Origin: Lysobacterales bacterium
GTDB lineage: Bacteria; Pseudomonadota; Gammaproteobacteria; Xanthomonadales; SZUA-36
Assembly (NCBI GenBank): GCA_013042915.1
Contig: JABDPF010000048.1
Coordinates: forward strand, 1-64,000
DNA: 64,000 bases
Direction of reading: 5' to 3'
Below are positions 5,989-64,000 of this stretch, piece after piece. The translations under genes and the position numbers were made by a program. Below the pieces are notes generated by a model that worked only from the letters and a program-made list of their open reading frames with translations, did no database searches and was not told the DNA's origin. Each line of letters opens with the position of its first letter. Position 1 is the first letter of the stretch.

Positions 5989-7419
<1,431 letters not shown>

Positions 7420-7442
7420 ACTCCGGTCTCAGGATACCGCTC

Positions 7443-7868
7443 ATGAAGCACACCATCCAATGTGACATCGTTTCCGCGCAGGAGGAGATTTTCTCCGGCG
7501 AGGCCTCGATGGTGTTCGCCACCGGCTCGGTCGGCGAGCTGGGCATCAGCCCGCGCCATGCGCCATTGATCACGCAACTCAAGCCGGGCCCGGTGCGCGT
7601 CAAGCAGCCCGACGGGGAAGAGGCCTTCTTCTTCGTCGGCGGGGGCATCCTCGAAGTCATGCCGCACCTGGTCACCGTCCTGGCCGATACCGCCGTGCGG
7701 GCGGATGACCTGGACGAGGCGGCTGCCGTACGCGCGAAGGAGGAAGCCGAGCGTGAGCTGGCCGACCAGACCGGCGAAATCGAGGTGGCCGAGGCTCAGG
7801 CCCGCCTGCTGGAGGCCGCCGCCCAGTTGCGCGCCCTGCAGCAATTGAGAAAGAAAGGCGCACGTTAG
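7443..7868 (+). CDS. atpC: ATP synthase subunit epsilon, copy 1
   Basis: A 141-residue epsilon subunit. The N-terminal beta-sandwich (about residues 1-86) shows the family landmarks [25 protein letters not shown] and [17 protein letters not shown]. The C-terminal helical hairpin ends [15 protein letters not shown], close to E. coli. Epsilon ties gamma to the c-ring and inhibits hydrolysis. The more canonical of two tandem epsilon genes; the second begins 34 nt downstream. Confidence 0.96.
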
Positions 7869-7902
7869 AATCCACTGAATCCCTCAAAAACGCGAGTTCC
7901 AG

Positions 7903-8331
7903 ATGCAATGTGACATCGTTTCTGCCCGTAAAACCGTTTACTCCGGCGAAGCGAAGCTGATCGTTGCTCCCGGGGCAGCGGGAGAGCTAGGCATCACGCC
8001 GCGTCACGCACCCTTGATGACCACCCTGCTGCCCGGCGCCGTTCGCGTCATCGAACCGGACGGCAAGGAAGTTCCGGTCTTGATCGGAGGCGGCATCATC
8101 GAGGTGATGCCCCACATGGTGACGGTGCTGGCGGACTCCGCTGCCCGTGCGCACGACTTCGATGAATCTGCTGCCCGCCGCGCAAAGGAGCGCGCGCAGC
8201 GCGTCATCGACGGAACCGGCGGAGCGTCGGAGGGTATGGATATCGCCGAGGCCAAGATCATGCTGAAGGACACCATCGAACAGCTGAGGGCGCTGGACCG
8301 ATGGCGCAAGCAGGTCGAGCATCGCAAATAG
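7903..8331 (+). CDS. atpC: ATP synthase subunit epsilon, copy 2 (tandem paralogue)
   Basis: A 142-residue second epsilon. It keeps the beta-sandwich landmarks (CDIVSARKTVYSG, GELGITPRHAPL, GGGIIEVMPHMVTVLAD) and differs mainly in the C-terminal hairpin. A longer glycine-rich turn (DGTGGASEGMD, about 106-116) separates the helices, and the last helix reads LKDTIEQLRALDRWRKQ. The frame is intact with no sign of decay. The divergence in the inhibitory C-terminal part suggests altered regulation rather than simple redundancy; this is inference. Last gene of the operon, convergent with sbtB. Confidence 0.93.
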   Translation: MQCDIVSARKTVYSGEAKLIVAPGAAGELGITPRHAPLMTTLLPGAVRVIEPDGKEVPVLIGGGIIEVMPHMVTVLADSAARAHDFDESAARRAKERAQRVIDGTGGASEGMDIAEAKIMLKDTIEQLRALDRWRKQVEHRK

Positions 8332-8363
8332 ATCAGGGGGCCTTGCTTCGGGGGCGCGTTGCG

Positions 8364-8675
8364 TCAGAACCGCTCCGCTCGTAACACCCCGCAGTCCGAT
8401 ACCGTGACCACCCCGATATGGTTCTCCACAAGGTCAAAAGCCGCGTCCAGCAAGGCGTCCAGCCGGTCGGGCCGAATGACGGAGACGAACTGCACCATGC
8501 CGCCTGATAGACCCACCTGGCCTTCGCTGCTCCAACGCCCGGAACGCCCGCTGCCACCCAGCACGGGAACGATGGTGTAACCGGTCACGCCGGCCTTGCC
8601 GAACGCTTCTTCCAATCGTCGGCGCATCGGTGCCTCGATGATGATCGTCACGCGTTTCGCATGATGGGTTTTCAT
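8364..8675 (-). CDS. sbtB: PII-like regulator of bicarbonate transport (SbtB/CPII type)
   Basis: A 103-residue PII-superfamily protein with the ferredoxin-like beta-alpha-beta repeat. A glycine/serine-rich stretch (LGGSGRSGRWSS, about 39-50) stands where PII proteins have the T-loop. It lacks the uridylylation-type T-loop tyrosine of GlnB/GlnK and ends SDCGVLRAERF. Its ATG follows the sbtA stop by a single nucleotide (TGA C ATG), so the two are surely co-transcribed. In cyanobacteria SbtB binds adenine nucleotides and gates SbtA; a carboxysome-associated relative (CPII) is known in chemoautotrophs. Role assignment is by family and neighbour. Confidence 0.85.
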   Translation of the reverse strand: MKTHHAKRVTIIIEAPMRRRLEEAFGKAGVTGYTIVPVLGGSGRSGRWSSEGQVGLSGGMVQFVSVIRPDRLDALLDAAFDLVENHIGVVTVSDCGVLRAERF

Positions 8676-8676
8676 G

Positions 8677-9654
8677 TCAGAAGCCTCCTCTGGCCACCAG
8701 GGCCAGTGCGTAGTAGATTGGGATGCCCACCGCCAGGTTGAACGGGAAGGTCACGCCCAACGACAGTGTCAGGTAGATCGAGGGATCTGCCTCCGGCATG
8801 GCCACGCGCATCGCTGCCGGCACCGCGATGTAGGAAGCACAGGCGGCCAGGATCATCAGGAGTATGGTGCCGCCCAGGCTCAGGCCCAGCAAAGAGGCCG
8901 CGCCCAGCCCGGCCAGGCTTCCCAGCAAGGGCATGACGATACCAAACGCGATGACCCCCATGCCCAGCGAGGCGCGAGTCCGGCGCAGTCCACGGCCGGC
9001 TATCAGGCCCATGTCGAGCAGAAACAGGCACAGCACGCCCTGGAACGGCGCACCGATAAAAGGTTGAATTTTCTGCATGCCGTCCTGGCCGGTGATCCAA
9101 CCGATCGCGAACGCGCCTACCAACAGCACGATGGACCCGTTCAGCAGGATTTCGCGCAGCAAATTGGCGTCGAACCGGCTCTCGCCGCCCCGGGACACGA
9201 TCCACAGGGCGGAAAGAATAGCAGGCGCTTCCATCACGGCCGCCACGGCGACCATGTAACCTTCGGCGTCCACACCACGTTGGGCAAGCAGTGACGACCC
9301 GGCCAGGAATGTGACGATCGAGATGGAACCGTAATGCCCGGCAACCGCCGCGGCGTTCAATCGGTCCAGCCGGCTCATCAGGCGCAGCAACGCAAACGCG
9401 ACGAAAGGCAGCACCGCGGAGAGCGCGACTCCGGCCAGCAGGGTTGCGCCCAACGTCGCATCCAGGCCGTGCCCGGCAACGCTGACGCCGCCTTTGAAAC
9501 CGATCGCGAACAGGAGGTAGATCGACAGGGCCTTGGCTGCCGCTTCCGGGAACGTCAGATCGGACCGCGCGAGCGCGGCAAGAAGACCCAGCACGAAGCT
9601 CAGGATGATCGGAGAGAGGAGGTTTTCCGAAGCCAGGGAGAGAATGTCCGACAT
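8677..9654 (-). CDS. sbtA: Sodium-dependent bicarbonate transporter, SbtA family
   Basis: A 325-residue membrane protein with about ten hydrophobic segments in two inverted halves, recognisable as the SbtA/DUF897 family (MSDILSLASENLLSPIILSF at the N-terminus, long-chain Leu/Gly-rich helices, and a soluble stretch around residue 170). Cyanobacterial SbtA imports bicarbonate with sodium. Being directly upstream of sbtB and divergent from a carbonic anhydrase supports an inorganic-carbon role. It starts at ATG 9654. Substrate is inferred from family and context; no Rubisco or carboxysome genes are in the window, so the carbon may feed anaplerotic carboxylation or pH control. Confidence 0.88.
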   Translation of the reverse strand: MSDILSLASENLLSPIILSFVLGLLAALARSDLTFPEAAAKALSIYLLFAIGFKGGVSVAGHGLDATLGATLLAGVALSAVLPFVAFALLRLMSRLDRLNAAAVAGHYGSISIVTFLAGSSLLAQRGVDAEGYMVAVAAVMEAPAILSALWIVSRGGESRFDANLLREILLNGSIVLLVGAFAIGWITGQDGMQKIQPFIGAPFQGVLCLFLLDMGLIAGRGLRRTRASLGMGVIAFGIVMPLLGSLAGLGAASLLGLSLGGTILLMILAACASYIAVPAAMRVAMPEADPSIYLTLSLGVTFPFNLAVGIPIYYALALVARGGF

Positions 9655-9827
9655 GATGATCCGTCATTCTTGGTCAGGTGGAGAATCATACCACCCTACC
9701 TCCCGGACTTTGCCTTGCGCCGCCTCGTGAGGAAACCCTGTCTGGTTTTGATTTATCATGACGGCGGAACGGGCCTACCGCTGAATGCGGTCACCTGTTG
9801 GAGCACTCGAAGCAGGCAAAGGATTTC

Positions 9828-10442
9828 ATGACCGTGATGTCACCTCCCGAGACACTTCACCATTTGCAGGAAGGCAATCGCCGCTTCGTTGAGGGTCGGT
9901 GCTCGCGCAACGTGAGCCAGGGGCACCATGGGTGCGCCGAAGCGTTCCAGGGCCGGGCGCCGCTGGCCATCGTGCTGGGTTGCTCGGACTCACGTGTGCC
10001 GCTGGAGTTGATCTTTGACCAGGAATTCGGCGACCTTTTTCTGATCCGCGTGGCGGGCAGCGTGGCCGCGCCGTCGCAACTGGGCAGTATCGAATTTGCC
10101 GTGCAGCGATTCGATACGCCGCTGGTAGTGGTACTGGGGCATACCCGGTGCGGGGCCGTGGAGGCCACCCTGGAGCAGGCCCTCTCGTCATCGCAAGACT
10201 GTCCGCCCAACCTGGGCGTCATCTCAGATCTCATAAAACCGTCGGTCGACTCGGTGCTGAAAATGCGGCACGGAGCGAATCGGGAAATACTCCTGGACGA
10301 GGCGGTGCGCGCCAACACGAGCGCCACGGTCGAACGTCTGCCGAGCGCGTCCGAAATGTTGGCAGACCGCCAGTCCAAAGGTCGTTTGGCCGTGGTGGGT
10401 GCGCATTATTCACTGCAAACCGGGACCGTGGAATTTTTCTGA
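9828..10442 (+). CDS. Beta-class carbonic anhydrase
   Basis: Interconverts CO2 and bicarbonate. From ATG 9828 (AAAGGA five nt upstream, better than the TTG at 9798) it has 204 residues. Zinc ligands are Cys52 in GCSDSRVP, His105 and Cys108 in GHTRCGA, with the Asp54/Arg56 dyad present, so it should be active. It is divergent from sbtA-sbtB across about 170 nt, forming a compact inorganic-carbon cassette. Confidence 0.95.
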   Translation: MTVMSPPETLHHLQEGNRRFVEGRCSRNVSQGHHGCAEAFQGRAPLAIVLGCSDSRVPLELIFDQEFGDLFLIRVAGSVAAPSQLGSIEFAVQRFDTPLVVVLGHTRCGAVEATLEQALSSSQDCPPNLGVISDLIKPSVDSVLKMRHGANREILLDEAVRANTSATVERLPSASEMLADRQSKGRLAVVGAHYSLQTGTVEFF

Positions 10443-10522
10443 ACGCGTCCAGAATCCACCTTTCAGGCGCGCAAATGCTAATATGTGGCCAACGGAATGA
10501 TCAAATCAGGACAGGGAACGCC

Positions 10523-10987
10523 ATGAACAAACTACTCACCTTGCTTGCCACAGCCGTTTTCGCGGTCGTGATTTTCCCGTCTTTTGCCGATGCGCAAAGC
10601 GAAAAAATGTACTCGTACACTGACGAAAACGGCACTGTCGTTTTCACGGACAAGAAGCCTCAGGGACGCGACGTGGCGTCTCAGTCCATCCCGCCGGGAC
10701 CGCCGCCCCAGGGTGGTAACCCTTACGCACAGCCGGAGCCCGATTCCGAGCTTTCGTCAGCACAGGAGCGGCGTGACGAAATTGCACAGAACCGCATTCA
10801 ATCCCGGGAAGCACAGGCCCAGCGGCAGGTGCAGTGCGCCGCATTGGCGAAGGAAGTCGCGCGGCTCGAACCCAACCGCCGGGTGTTTTACACCAACGAT
10901 GCCGGCGAGACCGTACGCATGGATGACGTCGAACGTGTCAACAAGGTGGCCGAGCTCAAGAGACAGATTGCCGCCAATTGTCGCTGA
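10523..10987 (+). CDS. Secreted DUF4124-type protein
   Basis: A 154-residue protein with a clear signal peptide (cleavage after FADA, about residue 24) and the N-terminal YSYTDENGTVVFTDKKP strand pair typical of DUF4124 periplasmic proteins. This is followed by a Pro-rich linker and a charged C-terminal helix with a repeated tract RVFYTNDAGETVRMDD. An AGGGAA Shine-Dalgarno supports ATG 10523. The family is common in gammaproteobacteria with unknown function. Same strand as the following YbaN-like gene. Confidence 0.8.
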   Translation: MNKLLTLLATAVFAVVIFPSFADAQSEKMYSYTDENGTVVFTDKKPQGRDVASQSIPPGPPPQGGNPYAQPEPDSELSSAQERRDEIAQNRIQSREAQAQRQVQCAALAKEVARLEPNRRVFYTNDAGETVRMDDVERVNKVAELKRQIAANCR

Positions 10988-11026
10988 AACTCCGCCGGGT
11001 GAGCACCCGGCGCACGCAGCCGTGAG

Positions 11027-11395
11027 ATGACCCGGCTGCTGGGCTTCCTGTTCCTCGCGCTGGCGCTGGCCGGGGTTTTCCTCCCGCTGCTGCCCACGAC
11101 TCCCTTCGTGCTTTTGGCGGCGGGTTGTTTCGCCCAGTCATCCGAGCGCATGCATCGCTGGATATTGCAAAACCCCACTTTCGGGCCGATGGTGACCGAC
11201 TGGGAGAAGAGAAAGTGCGTTTCCCGCCGGGTGAAGGTCATTGCGATCGTATCGATGGTCCTGGTGGGCGGTGTGTCTCTATATTTCGCACTCGAAACCC
11301 TCGCCTGGCGCGTTGCCGGTGGGCTGCTGCTTTTCATCGGCGCCCTTTTTGTTCTGCGGTTGCAAACGTGCCCGGGAAATGAAAAGGCCGGCTGA
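11027..11395 (+). CDS. YbaN family (DUF454) inner membrane protein
   Basis: A 122-residue protein with the YbaN pattern: N-terminal membrane hairpin (LLGFLFLALALAGVFLPLLP), the PTTPFVLLAAGCFAQSSERM motif, and a second hydrophobic pair near the C-terminus. The function of the family is not established. The stop codon lies inside the loop of a bidirectional terminator. Confidence 0.88.
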   Translation: MTRLLGFLFLALALAGVFLPLLPTTPFVLLAAGCFAQSSERMHRWILQNPTFGPMVTDWEKRKCVSRRVKVIAIVSMVLVGGVSLYFALETLAWRVAGGLLLFIGALFVLRLQTCPGNEKAG

Positions 11396-11408
11396 GCGCC
11401 GGCCTTTT
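11382..11408. terminator. Bidirectional intrinsic terminator
   Basis: AAAAGGCCGGC (11382-11392), loop TGAGC, GCCGGCCTTTT (11398-11408). A perfect stem with a T run on both strands, placed between the converging ybaN-like gene and the secreted-protein gene. It overlaps the ybaN-like stop codon. Confidence 0.88.
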
Positions 11409-11431
11409 ACTTTCGGTATGGAACGGACCAT

Positions 11432-12607
11432 TCAGGCGCTGGGGAACGTTACCTCGAGAATCGTGACGTTTGCCGAGTCGCGCACCTCGATGATCTTGTC
11501 CCAGGGTTCGAAATCGAGGTATTCGCGATCGTCTTTTTCCGGATCACTGAATTTCAGCTTGGTCTTTTCGAAATCCACCAGCACGTCGAGGCTGCCTTCC
11601 TGTTCGCCGGCCACGAAGAAACCGTAGCTGCCCATCGGAACGCCCTTGATCTCGACCTCGAATTCGGTTTCGTTCATTTTGACTTCGTACTCGACTTCCC
11701 CTTCTGCGCCGTCGATTTGACCGGTGCTCTCGAGTTCGATGCTCACCTTTACTTTGTCGCCCTTGTCCTTGGGGCCCTTTTCCTTTTCGGCCAGGACCTC
11801 CTCACCCGAGGTCAGGTAAACCGAGCCGGACTGCCTGATTTCAATCGGACAGTCACGCGGGTCAAAGACCAGGTTGAGCTTGCCTTCCATCTCCGGGCTG
11901 CGGAACTGCGTGGCCCCTTCGCCTTCGAAGACCGTCAGGGGGCCGAGTTCGGTGTCGCAGGCGAAGATCAGGTAATCGCCGTCGGCGATGTCTTCGGCCG
12001 TTACATGGAAGTCCATTCGATCCGGGCGCTCCCAGAAACGCGCCTTGCCTTTGCCGCCCATGCCGTCGGCGGGTGGCAGCAGTTCGACTTCCAGCATCAG
12101 CGGCTTCGCGTCGCCAGGCGTGTTGTCGGAGAGGCCCCCGCTGCAGCGCGAGTTGTAGAGACTGGCCAAACGCTTGATTTCGAATTCACCCTCGATATCG
12201 CCCATCACGAATTGGGCCATACCCTTGTTGCAGTTGTGGAACCACAGGTTCAGCTCGCCGGTCACCTCAACCGGATTCAGCGATTCGGTATCGGCCTGAA
12301 GGAACCCGGCGCCCGAGGACGTGTAGAGGTCCATCAGCACCCGGTCGCCCTCCACTTCACCGATTGCCATGTACCAGGCGGTTTCCTGATCGTCGCCGTA
12401 AGTGAACCAGTAGGCTACCGCCTTCGGATCGCCGTCCTGGTCCTCCTGGTCGATGATCTGGAGCATAATGCCCTGGCTTTCATGCTGAGGCTGCTCCCAC
12501 AGCCCGGAGAAATACCGGGTGACGACGAGGTCTCCGGCAAACGCCGACGTGAGCGAAAAACTGGCGCAGACAGTTAGGAATATGGATATGAGTAAACGGG
12601 ATTTCAT
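11432..12607 (-). CDS. Secreted protein with Wenzhouxiangella-type N-terminal domain
   Basis: A 391-residue exported protein (signal peptide to about residue 24, ending TSAFAG). Residues about 32-155 form a small beta domain: GLWEQPQHESQGIMLQ, then AYWFTYGD, then LWFHNCNKGMAQF, closing with RLASLYNSRC. The same layout ends the protein at 43202-44356. The second half is acidic and beta-rich (a long Glu/Asp/Lys tract around 275-330) and not recognised. It is monocistronic, ending at the shared terminator. Probably a periplasmic or surface protein; function unknown. Confidence 0.75.
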   Translation of the reverse strand: MKSRLLISIFLTVCASFSLTSAFAGDLVVTRYFSGLWEQPQHESQGIMLQIIDQEDQDGDPKAVAYWFTYGDDQETAWYMAIGEVEGDRVLMDLYTSSGAGFLQADTESLNPVEVTGELNLWFHNCNKGMAQFVMGDIEGEFEIKRLASLYNSRCSGGLSDNTPGDAKPLMLEVELLPPADGMGGKGKARFWERPDRMDFHVTAEDIADGDYLIFACDTELGPLTVFEGEGATQFRSPEMEGKLNLVFDPRDCPIEIRQSGSVYLTSGEEVLAEKEKGPKDKGDKVKVSIELESTGQIDGAEGEVEYEVKMNETEFEVEIKGVPMGSYGFFVAGEQEGSLDVLVDFEKTKLKFSDPEKDDREYLDFEPWDKIIEVRDSANVTILEVTFPSA

Positions 12608-61183: not shown

Positions 61184-61852
61184 ATGTTCCGGTTCAAACC
61201 TTTATGCCTGCTGTTCATCTGTTTTCTGGCTAACCAGCCCGACCCGCTAATGGCCGAAAGCTGGTTCAATGAGTTGCTGGTAAAACGGGCGCCCGCCTAT
61301 ACCCAGGAGGGCGCCGAGGCGTGCCTTGCCTGCCATGCCGGCGAAAAAATGCGCGCAGTCGGGCGAAGCGCGCACGGCGATCCGGACAATCCATTGACGC
61401 CGTTTGCCCTCCATGAATGCGAATCCTGCCACGGTCGCGGCAGCATCCATATTTCCCGTGCACACGGCGGAAAGGGCTATCCGCCCTTGACCATATTCGG
61501 TTACACGCGGGGCGCGGCTCCTCGTGATGAGCAGGTCGAGGCCTGCCTTGATTGCCACGCCGATGAGTCAAGTGGCATCGATGCTGTCCCCTTCGAGGGC
61601 ACGTTGCACGACAAGTGGATCATCAATTGCTCATCCTGCCACCGGGTGCACGCTGAGAATGACCCGGTGATGACCCGGCGCAACCAGGCGGAGATTTGCT
61701 TCGCCTGTCATTCCAGCAAGAAGGAAGAGCATCCAAAAGTCGGCAAACGGGTTCCCGATTTCGATCGAATGGGCTGCGCCGGCTGTCACCGTGTGCATCG
61801 GTTGCCGAAGCCCGAAAAAAATGTAGTGCAAGGTCAGGACGCCACGCCGTGA
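61184..61852 (+). CDS. Secreted hexaheme c-type cytochrome (DmsE/MtrA-like)
   Basis: 222 residues: signal peptide (LCLLFICFLANQPDPLMA, cleavage near 24), then six CxxCH haem sites at residues 47-51, 79-83, 121-125, 149-153, 172-176 and 198-202. The order and the spacer motifs (HECESCHGRG, CSSCHRVHAENDPV, AEICFACHSSKKEEH) resemble the front six haems of decahaem DmsE/MtrA proteins. Expected in the periplasm. The stop overlaps the nqrA GTG (GTGA), so the cytochrome is the first gene of the nqr operon. Its partner and direction of electron flow are unknown. Confidence 0.9.
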   Translation: MFRFKPLCLLFICFLANQPDPLMAESWFNELLVKRAPAYTQEGAEACLACHAGEKMRAVGRSAHGDPDNPLTPFALHECESCHGRGSIHISRAHGGKGYPPLTIFGYTRGAAPRDEQVEACLDCHADESSGIDAVPFEGTLHDKWIINCSSCHRVHAENDPVMTRRNQAEICFACHSSKKEEHPKVGKRVPDFDRMGCAGCHRVHRLPKPEKNVVQGQDATP

Positions 61853-63210
61853 TCGACACGATCCGAATCAAACAGGGTTTGAACATTCCGGTCGTCGGTT
61901 GTCCCGAGCAAGCGATCCATGATGGCCCTCCGATCCGTCACGTCGCCCTTTGCGGGCCGGATTACCAGGGCTTGCGACCACGAATGATGGTCCAGGAAGG
62001 CGACCGGGTCTCGTGTGGCCAGCCAATGTTCGTACACAAACACCATCCGGGTGTGCCCTATTGCGCGCCCGGTGCCGGGGAGGTCATCGCTATCCACCGT
62101 GGGGCTCGACGGGCGCTTCACTCGGTCGTGCTCCGGCTCGAAGACGAAGAATGTGGAAAACGGTTGTACCAACCGATGACCCACACTCGTATTCGCCGTT
62201 TGGAACGAGTCGAGGCAGCCGGGCGCCTTCGGGAGGCCGGTTTGTGGACCGCGTTTCGAACCCGGCCCTTCAGTGCCGTTCCTGCGGCCAACAGCGTGCC
62301 GCGCGCGATTTTCGTCACCGCCATCGACACCCGGCCTCTGGCGCCGGACCCCTGCGTGGTCACGGCCGGCCAGACCGAAGCGTTTGCAGACGGACTGAGT
62401 GTGCTGATGTCCCTGACGCCCGGATCGGTTTACCTGTGTACCGCGCCCGAGTGGGAATGGTCCGCGCCCGGGGACAGGCGGATCAGGCATGTCCGGTTCG
62501 AAGGGCCGCATCCGGCGGGACTGCCCGGAACGCACATCCATTACCTGGATCCCGTGGGTGCAGGTCGACAGGTCTGGCACGTGGGTTACCAGGACGTCAT
62601 CGCCATCGGACGGCTGTTCAGCGAGGGTGTACTCGACTTCAGCCGGGTCGTGGCCCTGGGCGGCAGTGGAATCCATCAGCCGCGCCTGGTGCGGTCGCGG
62701 CTGGGCGCATCGATTCCCGAACTTGTCGGCCGATACATGCAGGACGAGGACGGCAGCCGCTTCATTTCCGGCTCGGTACTCGGTGGACGAGCGGCACACG
62801 CCGGGCTGGCCTATCTCGGGCGATACCACGAGCAGGTCACGGTGATACCCGAGGGCGGGGATCGCCACCTGTTCGGCTGGACCGGCATTTTCCCGTGGCG
62901 GTACAGCGCGACGCGCACTTTTCTGCGGCGCCTGGGGCAGCGCAGGAAATACAACCTCACGACCGCGCAGAACGGGCGCTACAGCGGGATGATTCCGACC
63001 CGCGCGTTTGAAAAAGTGATGCCCCTGGACATCCTGCCGTCCCCCCTGTTCCGCGCGCTGCTCGTGCAAGACACGGACACGGCGCAGGCGCTGGGCTGCC
63101 TGGAACTGGACGAAGAAGACTTGGCGCTATGCGCTTTCGTATGCCCGGCCAAGATCGATTACGGCCTGGCGTTGCGTACCAACCTGCAACGTCTTGAAAA
63201 GGAAGGCTGA
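61849..63210 (+). CDS. nqrA: Na+-translocating NADH:quinone reductase subunit A
   Basis: 453 residues from GTG 61849. The chain follows NqrA throughout: IRIKQGLNIPVVGCPEQAI at the start, AAGRLREAGLWTAFRTRPFS, AIFVTAIDTRPLAPDP, FEGPHPAGLPGTHIHYLDPV, YQDVIAIGRLF, and LGCLELDEEDLALCAFVCPAK near the end. NqrA is the peripheral quinone-associated subunit facing the cytoplasm. It is coupled to the cytochrome upstream and overlaps nqrB (TGATG). Confidence 0.95.
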   Translation: MIDTIRIKQGLNIPVVGCPEQAIHDGPPIRHVALCGPDYQGLRPRMMVQEGDRVSCGQPMFVHKHHPGVPYCAPGAGEVIAIHRGARRALHSVVLRLEDEECGKRLYQPMTHTRIRRLERVEAAGRLREAGLWTAFRTRPFSAVPAANSVPRAIFVTAIDTRPLAPDPCVVTAGQTEAFADGLSVLMSLTPGSVYLCTAPEWEWSAPGDRRIRHVRFEGPHPAGLPGTHIHYLDPVGAGRQVWHVGYQDVIAIGRLFSEGVLDFSRVVALGGSGIHQPRLVRSRLGASIPELVGRYMQDEDGSRFISGSVLGGRAAHAGLAYLGRYHEQVTVIPEGGDRHLFGWTGIFPWRYSATRTFLRRLGQRRKYNLTTAQNGRYSGMIPTRAFEKVMPLDILPSPLFRALLVQDTDTAQALGCLELDEEDLALCAFVCPAKIDYGLALRTNLQRLEKEG

Positions 63211-64000
63211 TGAACGCCTTCCTGACGTCCCTGAGAACGCTGCTTGATCGTTTCGTATGGTCTTCCCACAACGTGACGCGCGTGGCGCCGCATGTGCGGG
63301 ATGCCAACAACGTGCAACGCATGTGGAACTACTTCGTGATTGCCACGCTTCCGGCATGGCTGATCGGCCTGTGGAGCCTGGGTCACCAGACAAACGTGGC
63401 ACTGTTCGACCTGCACCTCGAGAACCCTACCGGCTGGCGCGCGGCGTTCCTGGCCTGGTCAGGTATCGGCTTCAGCCCCTATGATTTCGGCGCCTGTTTC
63501 GTGCAGGGCCTGCTGTTTTTCCTGCCGGCATTCCTGACCGCCTTGCTGGTCGGCGCCCTCTGGGAGTCCCTGTTCGCCACGATGCGCAAGCGGCCGGTCG
63601 ACGAGGGTTTGCTGGCCACGGCCTGGTTGTTCGCGATGATCCTGCCCGCCACCGTGTCGATGTACCAGGTGGCGCTGGGCATGAGTTTCGGCATGGTGGT
63701 GGGTAAGCTGATCTACGGCGGGTCCGGTCGGTACCTGGTGAACCCGGCCTTGCTGGCATTGACCTTCCTGGTGTTTTCCTATCCGCACATGCTGTTTTCC
63801 GAAGGCGTGTGGGTTCCGGTTGCGAACTACGACCAGCCCACCGTGCTCGAGTTGATCACCGACGAGGGTGGGCTGACGGTGGCGTCCGCGGTTGACTACT
63901 CTTACTGGCACCTGTTTTTCGGAGACCGGCCCGGTTCGATGGGTGCGGTGTCCGCCTTTGGCGCGATCCTGGGCGCGCTGTTCCTTATCTGGACGGGGAT
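63210..64000 (+). CDS. nqrB: Na+-translocating NADH:quinone reductase subunit B, 3' end beyond the window
   Basis: The first 263 codons from ATG 63210; the gene continues past the window. Recognisable NqrB segments: APHVRDANNVQRMWNYFVIA, WLFAMILPATVSMYQVALGM, FGMVVGKLIYGGSGRYLVNP and GDRPGSMGAVSAFGAILGA. NqrB carries riboflavin and a covalent FMN at the Thr of a D-G-x-S-G-A-T motif. The aligned stretch here is ANYDQPT (205-211): Thr211 remains, but the Asp, Ser, Gly and Ala are replaced. Covalent FMN attachment by ApbE therefore looks doubtful. The N-terminus is shorter than in Vibrio NqrB. Confidence 0.93.
   Translation, partial: MNAFLTSLRTLLDRFVWSSHNVTRVAPHVRDANNVQRMWNYFVIATLPAWLIGLWSLGHQTNVALFDLHLENPTGWRAAFLAWSGIGFSPYDFGACFVQGLLFFLPAFLTALLVGALWESLFATMRKRPVDEGLLATAWLFAMILPATVSMYQVALGMSFGMVVGKLIYGGSGRYLVNPALLALTFLVFSYPHMLFSEGVWVPVANYDQPTVLELITDEGGLTVASAVDYSYWHLFFGDRPGSMGAVSAFGAILGALFLIWTG

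Follow-up and report, generated by a model that had tools for sequence, protein, structure and literature searches.

Several known redox systems lie close to the one considered here, a gene for a six-haem c-type cytochrome at the head of an nqr operon in a 64,000-nucleotide stretch of DNA from a Lysobacterales bacterium (positions 1 to 64,000 of contig JABDPF010000048.1; hereafter, the window). The Na+-translocating NADH:quinone oxidoreductase (Na+-NQR) of Vibrio cholerae has the same six subunits in the same order, and its flavin mononucleotide (FMN) motif in NqrC and the cysteines of NqrD/E and NqrF are kept in our operon, whereas the hexahaem gene is an addition and the FMN motif, N200 and the N-terminal stretch of NqrB are lost. 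In Methanosarcina acetivorans, another Na+ redox pump of the NQR/RNF superfamily, Rnf, has a co-encoded multihaem c-type cytochrome (PMC12174285); that complex, however, is archaeal and contains RnfB and RnfC, whereas our operon encodes NqrA and NqrF equivalogs and a cytochrome equivalent to half of DmsE/MtrA. The RNF operons of Desulfovibrionaceae also include a multihaem cytochrome (a CbcC-like decahaem) and, in some cases, an NqrF-like flavin adenine dinucleotide (FAD) oxidoreductase (PMC11434368), but their core is of the RNF type, their cytochrome belongs to another family and loss of the RnfD flavin site is not reported in PMC11434368. Finally, the NQR/RNF-like complexes of Actinobacteria and other groups have an NqrB/RnfD-like subunit that lacks a flavinylation site, and their electrons are thought to flow in the periplasmic direction only (PMC8238504, PMC10979944), but these complexes are partial, with a single electron path, whereas all six Nqr subunits are encoded here. 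A cytochrome inside an nqr operon is not reported in the open-access literature that we searched. We consider it fairly probable, judging from the sequences, that this operon encodes a variant of Na+-NQR, a Na+-pumping NADH:cytochrome c oxidoreductase in which NqrC would hand electrons to a periplasmic cytochrome c.

How does the locus compare with these systems? The operon lies on the + strand and runs off the end of the window, with the cytochrome gene at 61184-61852, nqrA (453 amino acids (aa), GTG start) at 61849-63210 and nqrB from 63210. The TGA stop of the cytochrome gene (61850-61852) and the GTG start of nqrA form a 4-bp overlap, and the nqrA stop overlaps the ATG of nqrB (63210) by 1 bp. 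These open reading frame (ORF) coordinates bear out the preliminary description of this DNA, in which a secreted cytochrome with six CxxCH motifs was said to overlap nqrA by 4 bp, and nqrA to overlap nqrB; its title, which spoke of a cytochrome fused into the operon, is loosely worded, because the cytochrome has its own gene within the operon and is not part of a fused protein. The window holds the 5′ part of nqrB (63210-64000, + strand), which ends at contig position 64391 and encodes 393 aa, its N-terminus being about 18 aa shorter than that of V. cholerae NqrB. Extension of the contig, which the same description had advised, recovered nqrC, nqrD, nqrE and nqrF downstream (contig C52 of our genome G000; 95,640 bp), encoding products of 268, 219, 202 and 407 aa. 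Because these genes were found on the same contig, and because all genes of the nqr operon overlap or are about 10 bp apart at most, we concluded that the operon (nqrABCDEF) is complete. The single apbE copy in the genome lies elsewhere (C4:12300-13130). NqrA scores above its NCBIfam equivalog cut-offs, and NqrA, NqrB and NqrC are similar to the solved V. cholerae chains (E = 2e-128, 7e-79 and 2e-55, respectively). The RnfB and RnfC of an RNF were not found in the operon, where the rnfC model scored 22.6 bits against a cut-off of 246; an NqrA equivalog and NqrF are present instead.

The first gene of the operon encodes a 222-aa hexahaem c-type cytochrome that resembles haems 1-6 of DmsE/MtrA and has orthologues in seven other genomes of the family. 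A Sec signal peptide is predicted at residues ~1-24 (61184-61255, + strand; cut near LMA-ES), and all eight orthologues have signal-like N-termini. The six haem sites of the window protein, C47-x-x-C50-H51 (61322-61336), C79-C82-H83 (61418-61432), C121-C124-H125 (61544-61558), C149-C152-H153 (61628-61642), C172-C175-H176 (61697-61711) and C198-C201-H202 (61775-61789), all on the + strand, read CLACH, CESCH, CLDCH, CSSCH, CFACH and CAGCH. All six sites are invariant in the eight orthologues, as are seven more histidines (H64, H89, H94, H142, H156, H183 and H205), a number sufficient for six bis-His haems. Because this invariance is maintained even though the orthologues share only 40-48% identity with the window cytochrome, it speaks for function. 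Pfam and NCBIfam place the protein among paired-CXXCH/NrfB-like/DmsE proteins (Paired_CXXCH, 2e-16), and among the NCBIfam models DmsE (TIGR03508) scores best, at 3e-29, with a match that spans profile positions 1-156 of 258 and stays under the cut-off. A profile of the eight orthologues aligns to residues 41-220 of the 333-aa chain A of 6r2q (E = 9e-34), and we therefore regard the cytochrome as corresponding to the N-terminal half, with its six haems, of a DmsE/MtrA protein; we take this chain to be MtrA of the MtrABC structure, although the molecule name printed for it is that of a different protein. The likeness to the DmsE/MtrA decahaems covers haems 1-6, whereas our protein has six CxxCH motifs in place of their ten, has no partner porin and is always encoded with nqrA. 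Nor is it a pentahaem NrfB, in that it carries six haems and scores 35.7 bits with TIGR03146, against a cut-off of 166.6. We also considered a decayed decahaem and rejected it, because the six motifs and seven histidines are invariant in eight divergent orthologues and true decahaems coexist with the hexahaem in several relatives. AlphaFold modelled the protein with low confidence (pLDDT 43), and the model was set aside.

The association of this cytochrome with nqrA is conserved. In a survey of 61 genomes, in which a hexahaem was counted at E < 1e-50, it was found in eight, and each time (8/8) immediately upstream of nqrA on the same strand; these eight genomes all belong to the family of the window's genome, a family of uncultured bacteria, and span five genera (coded g1, g4, g6, g8 and g12). 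When 299 genomes of the order were searched with a profile, the same eight came back at E <= 1e-102, the next matches (1e-37) being decahaem-sized, and a search of 369 genomes of the class found no hexahaem outside the family, where the best match (3e-46) was a 340-residue frame. Searches of plasmids and viruses for the hexahaem gave no useful match, and an exact-peptide genome scan returned decahaem proteins only, none of which adjoined nqr. As a control, the 1 kb upstream of 44 canonical nqr loci, two of which had <350 nt of upstream sequence, contained a haem ORF with a signal or anchor in only one case. This ORF (L199, in G492) has four CxxCH motifs and an N-terminal hydrophobic segment, is NapC-like by eye and ends 538 nt before the canonical nqrA. 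The contrast between 8/8 and 1/44 led us to reject a chance neighbour, and a link common to NQR in general was rejected because canonical NQRs of the same family (G025) and order (G040) lack the cytochrome and keep SGAT-type motifs. The preliminary description would have been contradicted by relatives lacking a conserved link, and no such result was obtained. The cytochrome-nqrA overlap, for which it had proposed a genome search, is found in the window's genome; elsewhere in the family the cytochrome gene stops ~5-12 nt short of nqrA. In an NqrB tree, which it had also proposed and which we built without the motif columns, the cytochrome-linked sequences form a clade: the seven family rows group together (100/99), and group again with a sequence from another order, G500 (99/98), apart from all canonical rows.

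Two side observations concern these operons. The search match to the G030 cytochrome (L064:11396-12025; contig G030:C225) has one in-frame TGA, and the reading used here is 209 aa long, with its stop just before nqrA. In addition, several such operons have a gene for a small CBS-domain protein after nqrF (L063:11710-12120, L065:2654-3064, L168:85-480 and L073:5161-5721); no such gene was observed in the genome of the window.

The subunit that differs most from its canonical counterparts is NqrB. In V. cholerae NqrB, the riboflavin ligands are T162, N200, N203 and D346 (PMC9325719, PMC10643135), FMN is carried by Thr236 in the motif DGYSGAT, which matches the ApbE recognition motif D-x-x-[S/T]-G-A-[S/T] (PMC12052999), and the N-terminal stretch forms an inhibitor cavity and adjoins the quinone site (PMC9325719). 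Seven family NqrBs were readable, six of them with the cytochrome seen and the seventh, that of G026, from a contig that begins inside nqrA. At the position of the FMN motif, all seven have [AP]xYDQP, with T or S as the next residue (M in G014), and among the linked NqrBs [AP]xYD[QL]P[T/S/M] replaces DxxSGAT in 8/8. The riboflavin-ligand positions are also changed in these sequences (N200 to Y in 8/8, T162 to I in 7/8 and N203 to S in 5/8), although the window's own NqrB keeps T162 and N203 and is the sole linked copy without the T162 change. All 37 canonical NqrBs in the same alignment keep T/S162, N200, N203 and [DE]xx[ST]x[AP]T. In the window, alignment places NqrB Tyr175 (63732-63734, + strand) at the riboflavin ligand Asn200 (PMC9325719) and ANYDQPT (residues 205-211; 63822-63842, + strand) at the ApbE flavinylation motif (PMC12052999). 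Because the clade is uniform at YD-P, L213 and E214, the old FMN motif has been replaced and not just eroded. Furthermore, the hexahaem-clade NqrBs begin ~18 residues later than usual, without the N-terminal stretch beside the quinone/inhibitor pocket, whereas the Na+ gate F338/F342 and the acids E144, D346 and D397 are kept throughout the linked clade. When we took positions invariant in 40-44 canonical NQRs and scored those absent from every linked sequence, the lost columns numbered 27/132 in NqrB, compared with 1/146 in NqrF, 1/35 in NqrC, 5/79 in NqrD, 8/93 in NqrE and 4/91 in NqrA. As far as such alignments can tell, the change in the linked NQRs is local to the output branch: the NqrC FMN motif is kept (VDGLTGAT in the window's genome, D[GA]LTGAT in the clade), and the cluster cysteines of NqrD/E and the 2Fe-2S cysteines and FAD/NAD domains of NqrF are intact. 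The enzyme's own route for passing electrons to quinone thus appears dismantled. Separately, position 141 of NqrB (V. cholerae numbering), presumably a korormicin-resistance site, is Ala in linked NqrBs (L060, L063-L065 and L002) and Thr in G026; in PDB chains it is Ala in 9lrr_B and Gly in 7xk3_B.

The closest NqrB outside the family comes from the genome G500, of another order of the class, and was the only match among the four genomes of that order searched. It has PGYDLPT at the FMN motif and Tyr at N200, and upstream of the nqrA of G500, ending 84 nt before it, is a gene for a monohaem cytochrome c of 95 aa that carries a signal peptide. Two unrelated periplasmic cytochromes, a monohaem in G500 and a hexahaem in the family, thus occupy the same position before the same altered type of NQR. 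Might these enzymes nevertheless be ordinary Na+-translocating NADH:quinone oxidoreductases in which the NqrB flavins are non-covalent and the cytochrome is merely co-regulated, for example with another respiratory branch, making no contact with the complex? All six subunits, the Na+ gate and the acids E144, D346 and D397 are in place, as such an enzyme would have them, and non-covalent-type relatives exist among the NQR/RNF-like complexes (PMC10979944). Its flavin acceptor position is Thr or Ser in 7/8 linked NqrBs, but is Met in G014, and the riboflavin site is hit too. The second, unrelated cytochrome in G500, the overlap of the cytochrome gene at the head of the operon and a complex I already present in the genome also argue against this explanation, which we consider unlikely despite the NqrB lineages, described next, that show the same losses without an adjoining cytochrome.

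Those lineages are among several points that weigh against a NADH:cytochrome c oxidoreductase. Five more divergent NqrBs lack both the FMN motif and N200, three from the same family (G001, G008 and G020) and two from the same class (G561 and G656). The tree places them in a group of their own, and no cytochrome lies next to nqrA in the four of these five loci whose upstream sequence was readable. We therefore rejected a strict tie between motif loss and the cytochrome; motif loss, to judge from these sequences, extends beyond the cytochrome-linked NQRs and may be older than the link, so that by itself it is no proof that the cytochrome is the acceptor. In addition, the linked cases make up one clade and hence few independent events, and the Thr/Ser kept at the acceptor position, together with T162 and N203 in the window's NqrB, makes non-covalent or inefficient flavin binding possible. 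The loci in question (L070 in G020, L073 in G008, L171 in G001, L173 in G561 and L174 in G656) are complete or partial NQR operons in which NqrC keeps its motif where readable. Because RnfD also bears covalent FMN (PMC12174285), the canonical state of NqrB is probably ancestral, and the loss in NqrB may have come before recruitment of the cytochrome or may have occurred more than once. We hold more tentatively, at slightly less than an even chance, the wider proposal that a clade of complete six-subunit NQRs has an NqrB without both flavins, serving as a Na+ channel only, and that this enzyme is a Na+-pumping NADH:cytochrome c oxidoreductase into which periplasmic cytochromes of at least two unrelated kinds have been recruited, the half-MtrA hexahaem and a monohaem of the class I type.

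What, then, might the enzyme do in the cell? The window's genome (2.69 Mb, 105 contigs, 96% complete) contains complex I genes (nuoD, G, H, L and M), so quinone reduction is independent of this NQR, and an aa3-type cytochrome c oxidase, which offers an outlet for electrons from a reduced periplasmic cytochrome c. The nearest genes upstream of the cytochrome, on the opposite strand, are leuA/leuC/leuD/ilvD-like by eye. Although the gene content is that of a Na+-NQR, the NqrB cofactor sites are not, and so we do not call the enzyme a confirmed NADH:quinone oxidoreductase; on the sequences, NADH:cytochrome is favoured over NADH:quinone. A soluble periplasmic hexahaem would have joined the operon as its seventh component, translated together with the others, and the normal ubiquinone route would have been lost. 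Electrons would pass from NADH through the FAD and 2Fe-2S centre of NqrF and the 2Fe-2S centre of NqrD/E to the FMN of NqrC at the periplasmic face, all of these sites being intact in sequence, and from there probably to the hexahaem cytochrome, instead of back via NqrB to quinone. The cytochrome could then, more speculatively, reduce other c-type carriers, with the aa3 oxidase as the final recipient or, in relatives, a conduit in the outer membrane. NqrB would remain the Na+ path, driven by the swing of NqrC that is visible in V. cholerae structures (PMC10643135). A periplasmic electron outlet of this kind, already suggested in the preliminary description, gains support from the apparent loss of the FMN and riboflavin determinants of NqrB.

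The electrons might also run the other way, from a periplasmic donor through the cytochrome and NqrC to NAD+, uphill and driven by the Na+ gradient. In principle, electron transfer in NQR/RNF can be reversed (PMC12174285, for RNF), and in G500 (L168:6643-6930 and 7399-12461) a [NiFe]-hydrogenase operon (small and large subunits and cytochrome b) diverges from the cytochrome-nqr operon. The MtrAB-type conduits with an octahaem that some family members possess would also fit this direction. We consider such reverse operation quite improbable, in that the acyl-CoA dehydrogenase, complex I and aa3 oxidase of the window's genome suggest an aerobic heterotroph and neither a decahaem nor a porin was found in it. 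A third explanation, to which we attach the least weight, is a metal- or electrode-reducing chain from the hexahaem to an outer-membrane MtrAB conduit. The identity of the hexahaem as an N-terminal half of MtrA/DmsE would suit it, and G005, G022 and G026 contain clusters of an octahaem (Cytochrome_cB), a decahaem and an MtrB/PioB-like porin (L175:9197-13987, L176:4885-9692 and L177:6090-10753; the porin by a Pfam scan in G005 only); in G005 and G026 the cluster and nqr are separated by ~15 kb. Such MtrAB-type conduit genes with an octahaem, however, are also present in family members without this NQR, and the window's genome, at its 96% completeness, gave no match to a decahaem or to the MtrB_PioB porin (PF11854). 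There is consequently no sign of an outer-membrane conduit in this genome, and we rejected one there. The DmsE/MtrA-like character given to the cytochrome in the preliminary description therefore stands for the first six haems, and its allusion to proteins carrying electrons across the periplasm does not extend to a conduit. The conduits of G005, G022 and G026 imply that the NADH:cytochrome c oxidoreductase proposed here may feed different sinks, through its cytochrome, in different members of the family.

Na+ coupling in NQR/RNF is debated between the FMN and riboflavin steps in NqrB and the swing of NqrC with the NqrD/E switch. A natural NQR with an NqrB that apparently lacks both flavins but retains the Na+ gate allows the two ideas to be told apart: should the altered NQR still pump, the NqrB flavins would not be needed for coupling. 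If our proposal is true, NADH would be connected directly with periplasmic cytochrome c in these bacteria, a way into the respiratory chain that involves neither the quinone pool nor complex III.

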